Source: Candidatus Sulfopaludibacter sp. SbA3 (GTDB lineage Bacteria; Acidobacteriota; Vicinamibacteria; Vicinamibacterales; UBA2999). Taken from it: a stretch of DNA of 40,612 nucleotides. The stretch covers positions 1 to 40,612 of the forward strand of contig CAMCNL010000005.1 in assembly GCA_945876205.1 (NCBI GenBank), given 5' to 3'. The notes beneath the pieces were generated by a model that saw only the letters and a program-made list of their open reading frames with translations, did not search any database and was not told where the DNA came from. Made by a program: the position numbers and the translations under genes. This document shows, piece after piece, positions 3,170 to 34,772 of the stretch. The stretch's first letter is position 1, and each line of letters begins with the position of its first letter.

Positions 3170-4807
3170 CTAAGCGTGGACGCCTGGCGCCTCGTGGCCG
3201 GTCCTCGTGACGTACTCGACATACGACCCGGGATAGAGGTGCGGCTCGGCGTCCTTCCCCGTTTCTCCGCCCAGTTCGATGACCCTGTTACTCAGTGCCC
3301 GCAGGAACGCCCGGTCATGCGACACGAACAGCATCGTGCCATCGAAATTCTTGAGCGATTCGATGAGCATCTCCTTGGTCGCCAGGTCGAGATGGTTGGT
3401 CGGCTCGTCCAGGACGAGGAAGTTCGGCGGGTTGAGCAGCATGCGCGCCATGACGAGGCGCGTCTTCTCGCCGCCCGACAGTGCACGGATCTTCTTGTCG
3501 GTGTCGTCGCCTGAGAACTGAAACGCGCCGGCGAGGTTGCGAAGGGTGCCGATCGACTCGGCCGGGAAATCCTTCTGGAGCTGCTCCTCGATCGTGAGAT
3601 CGGGGTCGAGCAGGTCGAGCGCCTGCTGTGCGAAGTACCCCATCTTGAGGCTGGCGCCGAGCCTCACTTCACCCGAGTCTGGCTGCATCGCCCCGGCAAT
3701 CATCTTCAGCAGCGTCGACTTGCCGGCGCCGTTCTTGCCCATGACGCACCACCGCTCGCCGCGGCGGATCGTCACGTTGAGATGATCGTAGACGACGCGC
3801 CGGCCGTAGGCCTTCGAGACGTCCTCGACGACGACGACCTGGTCGCCTGAGCGGGGTGGCGCGCGGAAGTCGAACTTCACGATCTTGCGCTTCTTCGGCA
3901 GCTCGATCTTCTCGATCTTCTCGAGCGCCTTCACGCGGCTCTGCACCTGCGCCGCCTTGGCGGCGTGGGCGGCAAAGCGCTCGATGAAGCGCTGCTCCTT
4001 GGCGAGCATCGCCTGCTGGCGCGCGTAGGCGGCCTCGCGATTGGTTTCGCGGATGGCCCGCTCGCGCTCGTAGAAATCGTAGTTGCCGGAGTAGACGGTG
4101 ATCTCACCGCCGTCGATCTCGGCGATCTTGCCGACCACGCGGTTCATGAACTCGCGGTCGTGCGACGTCATGAGCAGCGCCCCGGGCAGCGACTTGAGAA
4201 AACCTTCGAGCCAGATGATCGATTCGATGTCGAGGTGGTTGGTCGGCTCGTCCATCAGCAGCACTTCGGGGCGGCCGAGCAGCACGCGCGCCATCGCCAC
4301 GCGCATCTTCCATCCGCCTGACAAGGCGCCGACGTCACCGTCGATCGTCTCGTCCTCGAAGCCGAGGCCGTGCAGCACCTCGCGCGCCTGCGACTCGAGG
4401 CCGTAGCCGCCCTGGTGCTCGTACTCCTCCTGCACCTCGCCGAAGCGCGCGAGGATGCGGTCCATGTCGCCCGCCTGCGCCGGGTCACCCATCGCATGCT
4501 GCAGCGCCTCGAGCTCGTGGTGGAGATCGCCCAGGCGTCCGCTGCCGGCGATCGCCTCGTCGAGCACCGAGCGTCCCGACATCTCCTCGACGTCCTGCCG
4601 GAAATAGCCGACCGTGAGTTTCTTCGGCACCGACACGTCGCCCTCGTCAGGCGATTCCTCGCCCACGATCATCCGGAACAGCGTCGTCTTGCCTGAGCCG
4701 TTGGGACCGACGAGGCCGACCTTCTCGCCCGAGTTGAGCTGGAATGAGGCGTCGACGAAGAGGATCTGCTTGCCGTACTGCTTGCTGATTTTTGAAAACG
4801 AAATCAC
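3170..4807 (-). CDS. ABC-F family ATP-binding protein
   Basis: A 545-residue soluble protein with two ATPase halves and no membrane segment, the ABC-F plan; members act on the ribosome (translation factors, antibiotic protection). First half: Walker A GPNGSGKT at 34-41, signature LSGGWKM at 162-168, Walker B with LLMDEPTNHLD from 183. A charged linker at about 240-320, rich in Arg, Glu and Ala, is the P-site tRNA interaction motif region. Second half: Walker A GKNGAGKST at 357-365, signature LSGGEKTR at 443-450, Walker B FLVLDEPTNHLD from 463. Length is normal. It stands alone, with no resistance gene next to it, so a housekeeping Uup/YbiT-like role is as likely as protection. The subfamily cannot be fixed by eye. 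Confidence 0.92.
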   Translation of the reverse strand: MISFSKISKQYGKQILFVDASFQLNSGEKVGLVGPNGSGKTTLFRMIVGEESPDEGDVSVPKKLTVGYFRQDVEEMSGRSVLDEAIAGSGRLGDLHHELEALQHAMGDPAQAGDMDRILARFGEVQEEYEHQGGYGLESQAREVLHGLGFEDETIDGDVGALSGGWKMRVAMARVLLGRPEVLLMDEPTNHLDIESIIWLEGFLKSLPGALLMTSHDREFMNRVVGKIAEIDGGEITVYSGNYDFYERERAIRETNREAAYARQQAMLAKEQRFIERFAAHAAKAAQVQSRVKALEKIEKIELPKKRKIVKFDFRAPPRSGDQVVVVEDVSKAYGRRVVYDHLNVTIRRGERWCVMGKNGAGKSTLLKMIAGAMQPDSGEVRLGASLKMGYFAQQALDLLDPDLTIEEQLQKDFPAESIGTLRNLAGAFQFSGDDTDKKIRALSGGEKTRLVMARMLLNPPNFLVLDEPTNHLDLATKEMLIESLKNFDGTMLFVSHDRAFLRALSNRVIELGGETGKDAEPHLYPGSYVEYVTRTGHEAPGVHA

Positions 4808-4855
4808 TTTATTGATCGTATCCGGTCGCGGCTGACTTGCCCGCCAGCGAAGCGC

Positions 4856-5764
4856 TCAGTCGGAGATCAGGAGCTCACCCCTGGCGGCGAGCACTGCCTC
4901 GCCGCCGACTTTCACGCTTCTGATCGTATCCGCGTCGCCCTCGATCGCGATGTGAATCCTGCTCGGCCGCTTCATGGCGACGCCCTGCAGGCTGACGATC
5001 TGCTTCGCTGTGGCGTCGGAGACGACCTTGTGGCGCACGAGGTACGAACCGAGCGGACCGCTCGCGCTACCCGTGGCCGGATCCTCGGCAACGCCGGCAC
5101 CCGGCGCGAACATGCGGCTGTAGACCGTCCCATCGGAGCCCGCGGGAAGCATCGCAAAGAGAAAGACGCCGTGATCGCAGCCAGACACGACCGCCAGGCG
5201 GCGCATCGCGGCGCCATCGGTAACCGCGCGATCCACGGCTTCTCGATCGCGAAGCGGGACGAGGACGTACTGCAGGCCGCACGAAACCACCTGGACCGGC
5301 AGCCGCGGCGATAGGTCATCGACGCCAAGACTCAACGCTGCCGCGGCGGTCGCGCGATCCTCTATCGCGGGGCCGAAGACAGGATTCCGCTGCGTCATCC
5401 AGGCGAAGCGCAGGCGGGCTTCATCCCATTCCAGGTCAACGGGCGTCGGTCCGATGCCGAGACCGAAGACGAAACGCTCTGTCCCAGGACGTATCGTTCC
5501 CGCATCCGCGAGGGCAAAGGTGCTGCCGATGACCGGGTGGCCCGCCATCGGCAGCTCCAGGCCGGGCGTAAAGATCCGCATCCGGATGTCGGTGCCAGGC
5601 TGCTCGGCAGGCAGGATGAAGGTTGTCTCCGAGAAATTCATCTCCCGCGCGATCGACTGCATGAGATCGGGTGCGAGGCCGCGGCCGTCCGGGAAGACGG
5701 CCAGTTGATTGCCGGTGAGCGCTGTGTCGGTGAAGACGTCGTACTGAAGAAATGTCCGCGCCAT
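4856..5764 (-). CDS. PhzF family isomerase-like protein
   Basis: A 302-residue protein of the PhzF/diaminopimelate-epimerase fold. The opening FLQYDVFTDTALTGNQLAVF, the catalytic-Glu segment NFSETTFIL (Glu46), LPMAGHPVIGSTFAL and EDPATGSASGPLGSYLV are all family hallmarks. PhzF itself isomerises a phenazine precursor; most genomic members are of unknown substrate, and no phenazine genes are nearby. The ATG at 5764-5762 overlaps by one base the TGA of the upstream small gene (TGATG), so the two are translationally coupled. Confidence 0.88.
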   Translation of the reverse strand: MARTFLQYDVFTDTALTGNQLAVFPDGRGLAPDLMQSIAREMNFSETTFILPAEQPGTDIRMRIFTPGLELPMAGHPVIGSTFALADAGTIRPGTERFVFGLGIGPTPVDLEWDEARLRFAWMTQRNPVFGPAIEDRATAAAALSLGVDDLSPRLPVQVVSCGLQYVLVPLRDREAVDRAVTDGAAMRRLAVVSGCDHGVFLFAMLPAGSDGTVYSRMFAPGAGVAEDPATGSASGPLGSYLVRHKVVSDATAKQIVSLQGVAMKRPSRIHIAIEGDADTIRSVKVGGEAVLAARGELLISD

Positions 5765-6114
5765 CAGTGCTCGCGTCTGGTCTTGAGACGACGGCCGACG
5801 GCGAGGCCGACGTGATAGGCCCCTTCCTGCTGCAGCCAGACATGGCGGGCATGGTTGTCGGCGAGCTCGACGATCAGCATCCGCTGGTCTTCGGGGAGCG
5901 CCGCGGCGATCTGCTCGACGAGCTCCTCCTGGCGGGCGATGTCGACGGGCGCAAACAGCTCGTCTTCGTGCAGCGCCAGCAGCAGCTCCTCGTACTCCTC
6001 CTCGCACTGCTCTTCGGCGTCGGAGAAAGAGGGGATGTGACGGGCCTTCCCGTCGAGATCGAGTTTCTCCGCGCAACGGTCGGCAAGTTCGAGCAGTTCA
6101 TCAGAGGTGGGCAT
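5764..6114 (-). CDS. Small acidic protein of unknown function, coupled to the PhzF-like gene
   Basis: A 116-residue, strongly acidic, probably all-helical protein (for example EEQCEEEYEELLLALHEDEL in the middle), without signal peptide or membrane segment. It ends basic (VGRRLKTRREH). No family is recognised. Its stop overlaps the start of the PhzF-like gene by one base, so they form one operon. The ATG at 6114-6112 has no good ribosome binding site. Upstream lies the hairpin repeat 6144-6219. Confidence 0.6.
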   Translation of the reverse strand: MPTSDELLELADRCAEKLDLDGKARHIPSFSDAEEQCEEEYEELLLALHEDELFAPVDIARQEELVEQIAAALPEDQRMLIVELADNHARHVWLQQEGAYHVGLAVGRRLKTRREH

Positions 6115-6143
6115 CGGTTGATCTTATTCCCGCAACGCGCGTT

Positions 6144-6219
6144 AACCACGAAGGTCACGAAGGTCACGAAGGCCTTCTTGTACAAGAGATTCTTCGTGAT
6201 CTTCGTGATCTTCGTGGTT
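6144..6219. repeat. Long intergenic hairpin built of CACGAAGGT-type repeats (family B)
   Basis: The left arm (6144-6172) holds three copies of a unit like CACGAAGGT, and the right arm (6190-6219) its inverted copies. Arm differences are G against A, which stay paired as G-U if the plus strand is transcribed. The loop contains the small palindrome CTTGTACAAG. The plan matches family A at 452-532 although the unit sequence differs. A larger, more broken relative lies at 34638-34772. It sits between divergent transcription units, so it is probably not a simple terminator. Confidence 0.75.
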
Positions 6220-6233
6220 CAAGATGACTAGAT

Positions 6234-6277
6234 TCAAACAGTTGTTTGATACACTTGTTTCATACCGCTTATGAAAC
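6234..6277. promoter_or_regulatory. Two operator-like palindromes at the start of the broken efflux operon
   Basis: Palindrome 1, TCAAACA-GT-TGTTTGA (6234-6249), has perfect 7-base arms. Palindrome 2, GTTTCATA-CCGCT-TATGAAAC (6257-6277), has perfect 8-base arms and overlaps the start codon of the HlyD remnant at 6271. TetR family repressors typically bind such sites in front of their own operon, and the regulator gene is three reading frames downstream. Binding is inferred, not shown. Confidence 0.55.
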
Positions 6278-6375
6278 GAATCGTTCGACTTGTCATCCTC
6301 CTCGCCCTCGGAGGCGGCATTGGCTACTACGCCTGGCTCCAGAGCCGGCCGCGGCCGCTCGTCCAATGCGAATGA
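6271..6375 (+). pseudogene. 5' remnant of an HlyD-type membrane fusion protein gene
   Basis: ATG 6271 opens a frame with the usual start of an HlyD/RND periplasmic adaptor: a basic N-terminus, one membrane anchor (VRLVILLALGGGIGYYAW) and a short SRPRPLV tail. It then runs into unrelated sequence and stops at TGA 6373-6375 after 34 residues. The family continues for about 300 more residues, so nearly all of the gene is missing. The frame crosses straight into the ABC-2 permease remnant at 6366, marking a deletion junction near 6360-6372. Confidence 0.65.
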
Positions 6376-6719
6376 TGCGAATGTTCGTCGTCATCGTCGC
6401 GACCGCGTTTTGCCTCATCAGCCTGATGTTTCTCATCATGGCGCGGATCACCGACCCGCTGCTGCCGCGCGCCATCTTCGGGGTGCTCAATACGCTCCTC
6501 TACTTCCCGAGCGGCGCGGTGTATCCCACGCAGGGCTTTCCCAACTGGATACGGGTCATTTCCGCCGTCGATCCGTTCACCTACTCCGTGCACGCGTTCA
6601 AGAGCCTCATCCTGAAGAACACCGGCTTCGCGGCGATCAGCGGCGACCTCGCTTACCTGATCGTCTTCTCCGCCGTGGCGATGACGGGGGCTACGCTCCT
6701 CTTCAAGCGGACGTTGTGA
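6366..6719 (+). pseudogene. 3' remnant of an ABC-2 type permease gene
   Basis: About 118 residues corresponding to the last third of an ABC-2 export permease. There is a membrane segment (MFVVIVATAFCLISLMFLIM), the typical LPRAIFGVLNTLLYFPSGAVYP loop region, the PFTYSVHAFKSLILKN segment, and a last membrane helix before a basic end. A full permease has about 370 residues and six helices. The N-terminal part, the ATPase gene and most of the adaptor gene appear to have been lost in one deletion. The stop at 6717-6719 lies two bases from the regulator ATG at 6722, so the original operon end is preserved. The ATG at 6366 may be an accident of the junction. Confidence 0.7.
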
Positions 6720-6721
6720 GG

Positions 6722-7348
6722 ATGAAGGCCGAGGACCAGGAGACGCGCGGCCGGCTGCTGTCAGCGGGCGCCCGTCTGTTTGCCGAGCACGGCTTCGCCA
6801 AGGTGACGGTGCGCGACATCTGCCGGAAGGCCGTGGCCAACGTCGCCGCCGTCAACTACCACTTCGGCGGCAAGGTCGGGCTGTACGACGAGGTGCTGCA
6901 GGCGGCCGTGCGGACGATGCAGTCGACAACCGAGGCGGCGCGCGAGGCTGGCGCGCAACAGCCGCCCGAGCAACAGCTTCGGGCCTACATCGGGGTGTTC
7001 CTGCACCGCGTCGTCGGAAGCGGGCACGACAGCTGGATCCATCAGTTCATGCTGCGCGAGATGTCCGATCCGACGCCGGCCCTCGACATCGTCATCGAGC
7101 AGGTGATCAAGCCCCGAATGGCATACCTGTGCGGCATCATGGCCGAGCTGCTTGGCTGCCCAATCGACGATCCGCGCGTGGCGCGCTGCGCCATGAGCGT
7201 GCACGTGCAATGCCTCTCGCAGATGCATAACCCCGTCGCGTCGCGGATGAGCCCCGCGTTCGAGCGGACGCCCGAGACGCTCGACGCGATGACCGACCAC
7301 ATCGCGAGATTTTCGCTGGCCGGGATTCGCGACATCGCCGGGCCATAA
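6722..7348 (+). CDS. TetR family regulator, CecR/YbiH type
   Basis: A 208-residue repressor. Residues 5-60 form the TetR helix-turn-helix (GARLFAEHGFAKVTVRDICR, then VAAVNYHFGGKVGLYDEVL). The C-terminal ligand domain matches the CecR-type (DUF1956) class by its WIHQFMLREMSDPTPALD segment. In Escherichia coli CecR controls an HlyD adaptor and ABC-2 exporter set (ybhGFSR); here the same gene set is reduced to two remnants upstream. The start lies two bases after the permease stop, so regulator and exporter shared a message. The palindromes at 6234-6277 are its likely operators. With the exporter broken, it may now control only itself or genes elsewhere. Confidence 0.88.
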   Translation: MKAEDQETRGRLLSAGARLFAEHGFAKVTVRDICRKAVANVAAVNYHFGGKVGLYDEVLQAAVRTMQSTTEAAREAGAQQPPEQQLRAYIGVFLHRVVGSGHDSWIHQFMLREMSDPTPALDIVIEQVIKPRMAYLCGIMAELLGCPIDDPRVARCAMSVHVQCLSQMHNPVASRMSPAFERTPETLDAMTDHIARFSLAGIRDIAGP

Positions 7349-34637: not shown

Positions 34638-34772
34638 AAACCACGAAGGTCACGAGCTAGCCACGAAGATCACGAAGCCCAAGAAAGCCTTCGTGCCTTC
34701 GTGGCTTTTCTTCGTGTCTTCGTGGCTATTTCTTCGTGTTCTTCGTGGCTAACCTTCGTAAGCTTCGTGGTT
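34638..34772. repeat. Large CACGAAG-type repeat block (family B)
   Basis: The block has a left part (34638-34680) with units of the form CCACGAAGGTCACGA, and a right part (34687-34772) with at least six inverted units of the form TTCGTGGCT. It can fold as several alternative stems. It lies between the J-domain gene start and the end of the metallohydrolase gene, and is related to the cleaner hairpin at 6144-6219. Confidence 0.75.

Follow-up and report, generated by a model that had tools for sequence, protein, structure and literature searches.

A probable single deletion collapsed a CecR/YbhGFSR-like efflux operon, leaving its operator and TetR regulator

Results

Organization of the locus

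The window analysed here is the whole of contig C5 (40,612 nucleotides) from the genome of Candidatus Sulfopaludibacter sp. SbA3, a 391-contig draft of 4.06 Mb with 97.65% completeness; it contains no N bases and no scaffold gap. The locus (Table 1) starts with a promoter-operator region, followed by the 31-residue N-terminus MKRIVRLVILLALGGGIGYYAWLQSRPRPLV of an HlyD-type adaptor, which represents its membrane-anchor start. As the earlier note described, these codons are joined straight onto the last third of an ABC-2 permease, and an intact TetR regulator gene follows. The permease remnant matches PF12698 at model positions 243-345 of 347, and has possible restarts at ATG 6366, 6372 or 6375, the last of which gives a protein of 114 aa. 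This ATG overlaps the stop codon of the hlyD frame in the sequence TGATG. The hlyD half shares 74-77% amino acid identity with the hlyD of relative G011, and the permease half shares 68-81% identity with orthologues in the same order. Since both halves match orthologues, the chimera is not a chance open reading frame.

Table 1. Features of the collapsed efflux operon (positions in the window)
Feature	Position	Strand	Details
Operon promoter position	6224-6253	+	-35-like ATGACT 6224-6229, -10-like GATACA 6248-6253
Operator box 1	6234-6249	+	TCAAACA-GT-TGTTTGA, perfect palindrome; same position in 26 relatives
Operator box 2	6249-6260	+	ATACACTTGTTT; direct repeat with box 1, 13 bp downstream; ATACANNTGTTT conserved in relatives
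Second perfect palindrome	6257-6277	+	GTTTCATA-CCGCT-TATGAAAC, over start codon; absent from relatives
hlyD remnant	6271-6375	+	codons 1-31 homologous (6271-6363), then out-of-frame codons, TGA 6373-6375
Deletion junction	6362-6364	+	hlyD GTC-C / permease [GAT]-CCA; 0-3 nt possible microhomology
ABC-2 permease remnant	6363-6719	+	last ~118 codons, native frame, TGA 6717-6719
TetR regulator gene, intact	6722-7348	+	208 aa; start 2 nt after permease stop (TGAGGATG)

Upstream of the collapsed operon, the minus strand carries a PhzF-like gene and a 116-aa gene (4859-6114). The latter is 74-80% identical to genes adjoining the intact operon in L023, L028 and L030, where it flanks the operon at its tetR end, not at its hlyD end; L028 also carries a PhzF-like gene. 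By sequence comparison, the neighbourhood is thus common to the window and these three loci but rearranged. In addition, an inverted repeat with 38-bp arms made of CTTCGTGATCTTCGTG-type 9-bp units occurs at 6144-6219 and 34662-34747, and on many other contigs of the same genome. With one mismatch allowed, its 16-mer has 75 + 81 genome occurrences, compared to 0 in the reversed control, and it is an abundant REP-like family of interspersed palindromic repeats.

The regulator is a CecR-type TetR protein

The regulator contains two domains that both score above the gathering score, TetR_N (PF00440, 7.5e-13) and CecR_C (PF09209, 1.3e-29), in keeping with the earlier view that it is intact. It thus combines the helix-turn-helix and the ligand domain that define the CecR/YbiH type of TetR regulators. 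Assignment as the E. coli CecR equivalog was rejected, with a score of 49.4 bits for NF008587 against a cut-off of 365, and the predicted protein resembles CecR at the family level, not as an equivalog.

The E. coli CecR is described in two accounts as controlling ybhGFSR and affecting the sensitivity to cefoperazone and chloramphenicol (PMC6790063, PMC7190983, citing Yamanaka 2016). Like the E. coli cecR(ybiH)-ybhGFSR system, the operon to which our regulator belongs links a CecR-type TetR to an HlyD/MFP adaptor, an ABC ATPase and an ABC-2 permease. The two differ in that the E. coli system has its regulator first and has two permeases (PMC7190983), whereas relatives of the window have one permease and tetR last; moreover, the window has lost its pump genes.

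Relatives carry the complete operon

Orthologues of the permease stub were searched for in family, order and phylum surveys of the host genome. Most order-level relatives gave identities of 68-81%, with lower values further out, and a scan of named genomes gave 21 loci, mostly from Acidobacteria and Gemmatimonadota drafts. With the four proteins of G011 as queries for operon order, and only distinct loci on long enough contigs counted, the order hlyD-ATPase-permease was found at 35 of 35 loci, usually with tetR directly after; one hlyD is clipped by a contig end. Pfam assigned the G011 genes to HlyD_D23/HlyD_3, ABC_tran with DrrA1-3_C, ABC2_membrane_3 and CecR_C. These operons therefore have the adaptor, ATPase and permease that make up a YbhGFSR-like efflux operon, compared to 31 adaptor codons, ~118 permease codons and no ATPase in the window.

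Complete hlyD-ATPase-permease-tetR operons in Acidobacteriota/Gemmatimonadota drafts (such as G011:C55, JAHFUI010000070 and JADZED010000081) resemble the window in gene order, tandem operator and permease C-terminus, but the window is short by ~2.7-2.9 kb. The join between hlyD and permease is absent from all 35 loci, and no other short form was found in the family, order and phylum surveys, so that the proposed collapse withstands a comparison which the earlier note had named as able to overturn it. Among candidates for a second short form, G333 was rejected as clipped by its contig end, and G110 (L102), G121 (L105) and L088 as having small internal permease lesions with adaptor and ATPase kept. 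These lesions (L088 ~5004-5206; L102, oriented, ~5836-6472; L105, oriented, ~4345-5005) consist of tens of codons that are missing or duplicated, and may reflect natural decay or errors of assembly. The operon is present in 8 of 43 family genomes and 33 of 162 order genomes, a patchy distribution indicating that in general it is often lost or transferred.

Extent and junction of the proposed deletion

The two halves of the window align to both ends of the relatives' operons, which bears out a single internal deletion in an adaptor-ATPase-permease-TetR operon. Measured on the relatives, the missing length is 2,597-2,860 bp (median 2,715), and 2,852 bp against G011. Alignment to intact relatives places the end of hlyD homology at codon 31 (GTC, 6361-6363) and the beginning of permease homology at the Pro codon CCA (6363-6365). 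As the bases TCC at the junction could derive from either side, the microhomology amounts to 0-3 nt.

Just 3' of the junction lies a direct repeat, ATGCGAATG-ATGCGAATG (6366-6383), which encodes Met-Arg-Met-Met-Arg-Met of the permease. The earlier note had placed the junction within this repeat, at 6365-6380, and suggested that it promoted the deletion; the repeat is real, but the junction precedes it. Slippage or recombination between its copies would fit a repeat only 2-20 nt from the junction. However, both copies are coding sequence of the permease, aligned with Pro-Met-Arg-Met-x-Arg-Met/Leu of intact relatives, which are near-identical at these codons (L111 CCGATGCGGATGATGCGCCTG, L029 CCGATGCGGATGATTCGAATG). 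In the same alignment, the hlyD breakpoint encodes Val-Leu-Thr-Gly-Ile-Val and has no ATGCGAATG-like sequence. Because the repeat is the permease's own sequence and is absent at the hlyD breakpoint, it does not explain the deletion, and we regard this route as highly improbable.

Close copies of the missing parts are absent from the rest of the assembled genome: the best HlyD match reaches 32%, the best ATPases 35-45%, and the permease N-terminus has no match. Translocation of the missing genes was accordingly rejected. The locus is thus most likely a deletion-collapsed operon, with ends homologous to those of the intact operon and a middle that is absent from the assembled genome. A distant HlyD-ATPase-ATPase-permease operon lies on contig C313 (1-4319) of the same genome, with only the start of its permease before the contig end, and the operon may continue on contig C355 (1-3543), which has two distant permease matches. 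Through the C313 operon, the cell may still have a further exporter of broadly this type.

A conserved putative tandem operator overlaps the promoter

Both perfect palindromes that the earlier note reported at the operon start are present, but they differ in conservation. Box 1 is conserved as part of a tandem operator, whereas the palindrome at 6257-6277 is not conserved in the relatives; it was rejected as an operator, is lineage-specific and is probably incidental. The upstream regions of 26 relatives with the same module were aligned with box 1 as the anchor, so the conservation of box 1 follows from the selection of rows; by the pattern used, box 1 was not found at four other loci. Upstream of hlyD, the 26 relatives have TTGAC, then TCAAACANNTGTTT and then NATACANNTGTTT, with TGTTT elements 13 bp apart. 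Box 1 lies between the -35-like and -10-like elements, and the tandem operator overlaps the promoter. We propose that this predicted operator, conserved in position in the relatives, is bound by the TetR upstream of its own operon.

In the window, both boxes retain their half-sites. The -35-like element there has ATGAC, one base off the TTGAC found in 23 of the 26 relatives, and the -10-like GATACA is one base off TATACA, whose first position is T in 21 of the 26; no match to the sigma-70 consensus was found in the window. As each element carries an unusual base, the promoter may be weaker than in the relatives, and the predicted TetR expression is uncertain.

The earlier note raised the possibility that the regulator was kept for other targets, and proposed a search for further copies of the palindromes. 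This search did not favour such targets: the assembled genome has a single instance of the full tandem pattern, even with up to 3 mismatches, and the only other exact copy of AAACANNTGTTT lies inside a coding ORF on contig C52. Single boxes with at most one mismatch number 19, compared to 11 in a reversed control, and second operator copies were rejected as evidence of a regulon. A wider regulon thus left no sign in the genome-wide site search, and the TetR may contact weaker sites.

Age of the probable loss

A stub long free of selection should gather stops, frameshifts and changes at conserved positions. The permease remnant has no stops or frameshifts and keeps 38 of the 39 columns that are invariant in 31 orthologues; its GC3 is 0.90 (0.73-0.98 in others), and its mean dN of 0.192 falls within the range of intact relatives (0.145-0.232). 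Of the 45 TetR columns conserved at >=90%, 43 are kept, also within the range of intact relatives. As neither shows excess decay, the loss was probably recent on the scale of genus-level divergence, an option that had been raised for the locus. No second genome of the host genus was found to date the deletion.

Discussion

Taken together, the locus is most likely the product of a single recent deletion of ~2.7-2.9 kb, which collapsed a CecR/YbhGFSR-like efflux operon and kept the operator and regulator. The ancestor would have been a drug-efflux operon, hlyD-ATPase-permease-tetR, with one promoter and a tandem TetR operator. One deletion would have taken out hlyD from codon 32 onwards, all of the ATPase gene and roughly 250 codons from the start of the permease, by an out-of-frame break of the illegitimate or microhomology type (0-3 nt). 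What remains of promoter strength, together with the operator, would now drive only a 34-aa membrane peptide, a permease stub of 114-117 aa and the repressor. If the promoter fires, the transcript would run from the 34-codon hlyD stub through the TGATG overlap, which may couple translation, to the permease stub and tetR. By binding its own tandem operator, the TetR would mainly repress itself, as there is no pump left to control, and the two stubs would be without function. The regulator would owe its survival to its position 3' of the deletion and to how recent the loss is.

The join might instead be an assembly artefact or a mixed-strain join, in which the complete operon still exists in the population or strain and the assembler skipped ~2.7 kb. 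The genome is indeed a many-contig draft, and drafts L088, L102 and L105 have smaller lesions in the same permease gene, whether natural or made in assembly. For a k-mer assembler to make a false join, the two sites usually have to share k or more bases. However, the breakpoint regions of the relatives (roughly +/-60 nt) share exact stretches of 7-13 nt at the longest, and the junction itself no more than ~3 nt, too little for such a join; moreover, the window is gap-free, and no contig of the assembly carries an orphaned copy of the missing ATPase, of the adaptor or of the permease N-terminus. We therefore consider misassembly unlikely.

The short operon might also be maintained, either as a TetR cassette that regulates itself and carries a small membrane protein, or through a regulator that controls genes elsewhere. 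Its permease stub and TetR frames are intact and conserved and its operator half-sites are kept, and retained function would leave the same conservation pattern; yet a recent loss accounts for that pattern equally well. As the short form is seen in a single genome, has none of the energising parts and is missing the ATPase, the adaptor and most of the membrane domain, retained function is judged very improbable. The absence of a second tandem operator and the count of one-mismatch single boxes (19, against 11 in the reversed control) likewise speak against control of other genes. That the TetR and tandem operator form a minimal circuit, a ligand-sensing autoregulated switch making a permease-derived membrane protein with a new role, would be a shade less probable still. 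The deletion thus remains the preferred reading.

Transcription factors orphaned by operon decay are a general phenomenon, and here too the regulator and operator outlast the genes they controlled. Unlike the usual orphans, this operon is at an early stage: the two ends of the deletion can still be read and have not decayed. No specific match to this kind of event came out of a literature search. The event itself is an ordinary gene loss seen early, and the collapsed operon leaves general views unchanged. For the CecR-type pumps of Acidobacteriota and their relatives, the comparison further yields a conserved tandem operator (TCAAACANNTGTTTNATACANNTGTTT) that is set between a TTGAC -35 and a TATACA -10. 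The locus itself would offer a snapshot of the death of an efflux operon, in which one illegitimate deletion removes the pump, and the 5' operator and 3' regulator remain to control themselves.
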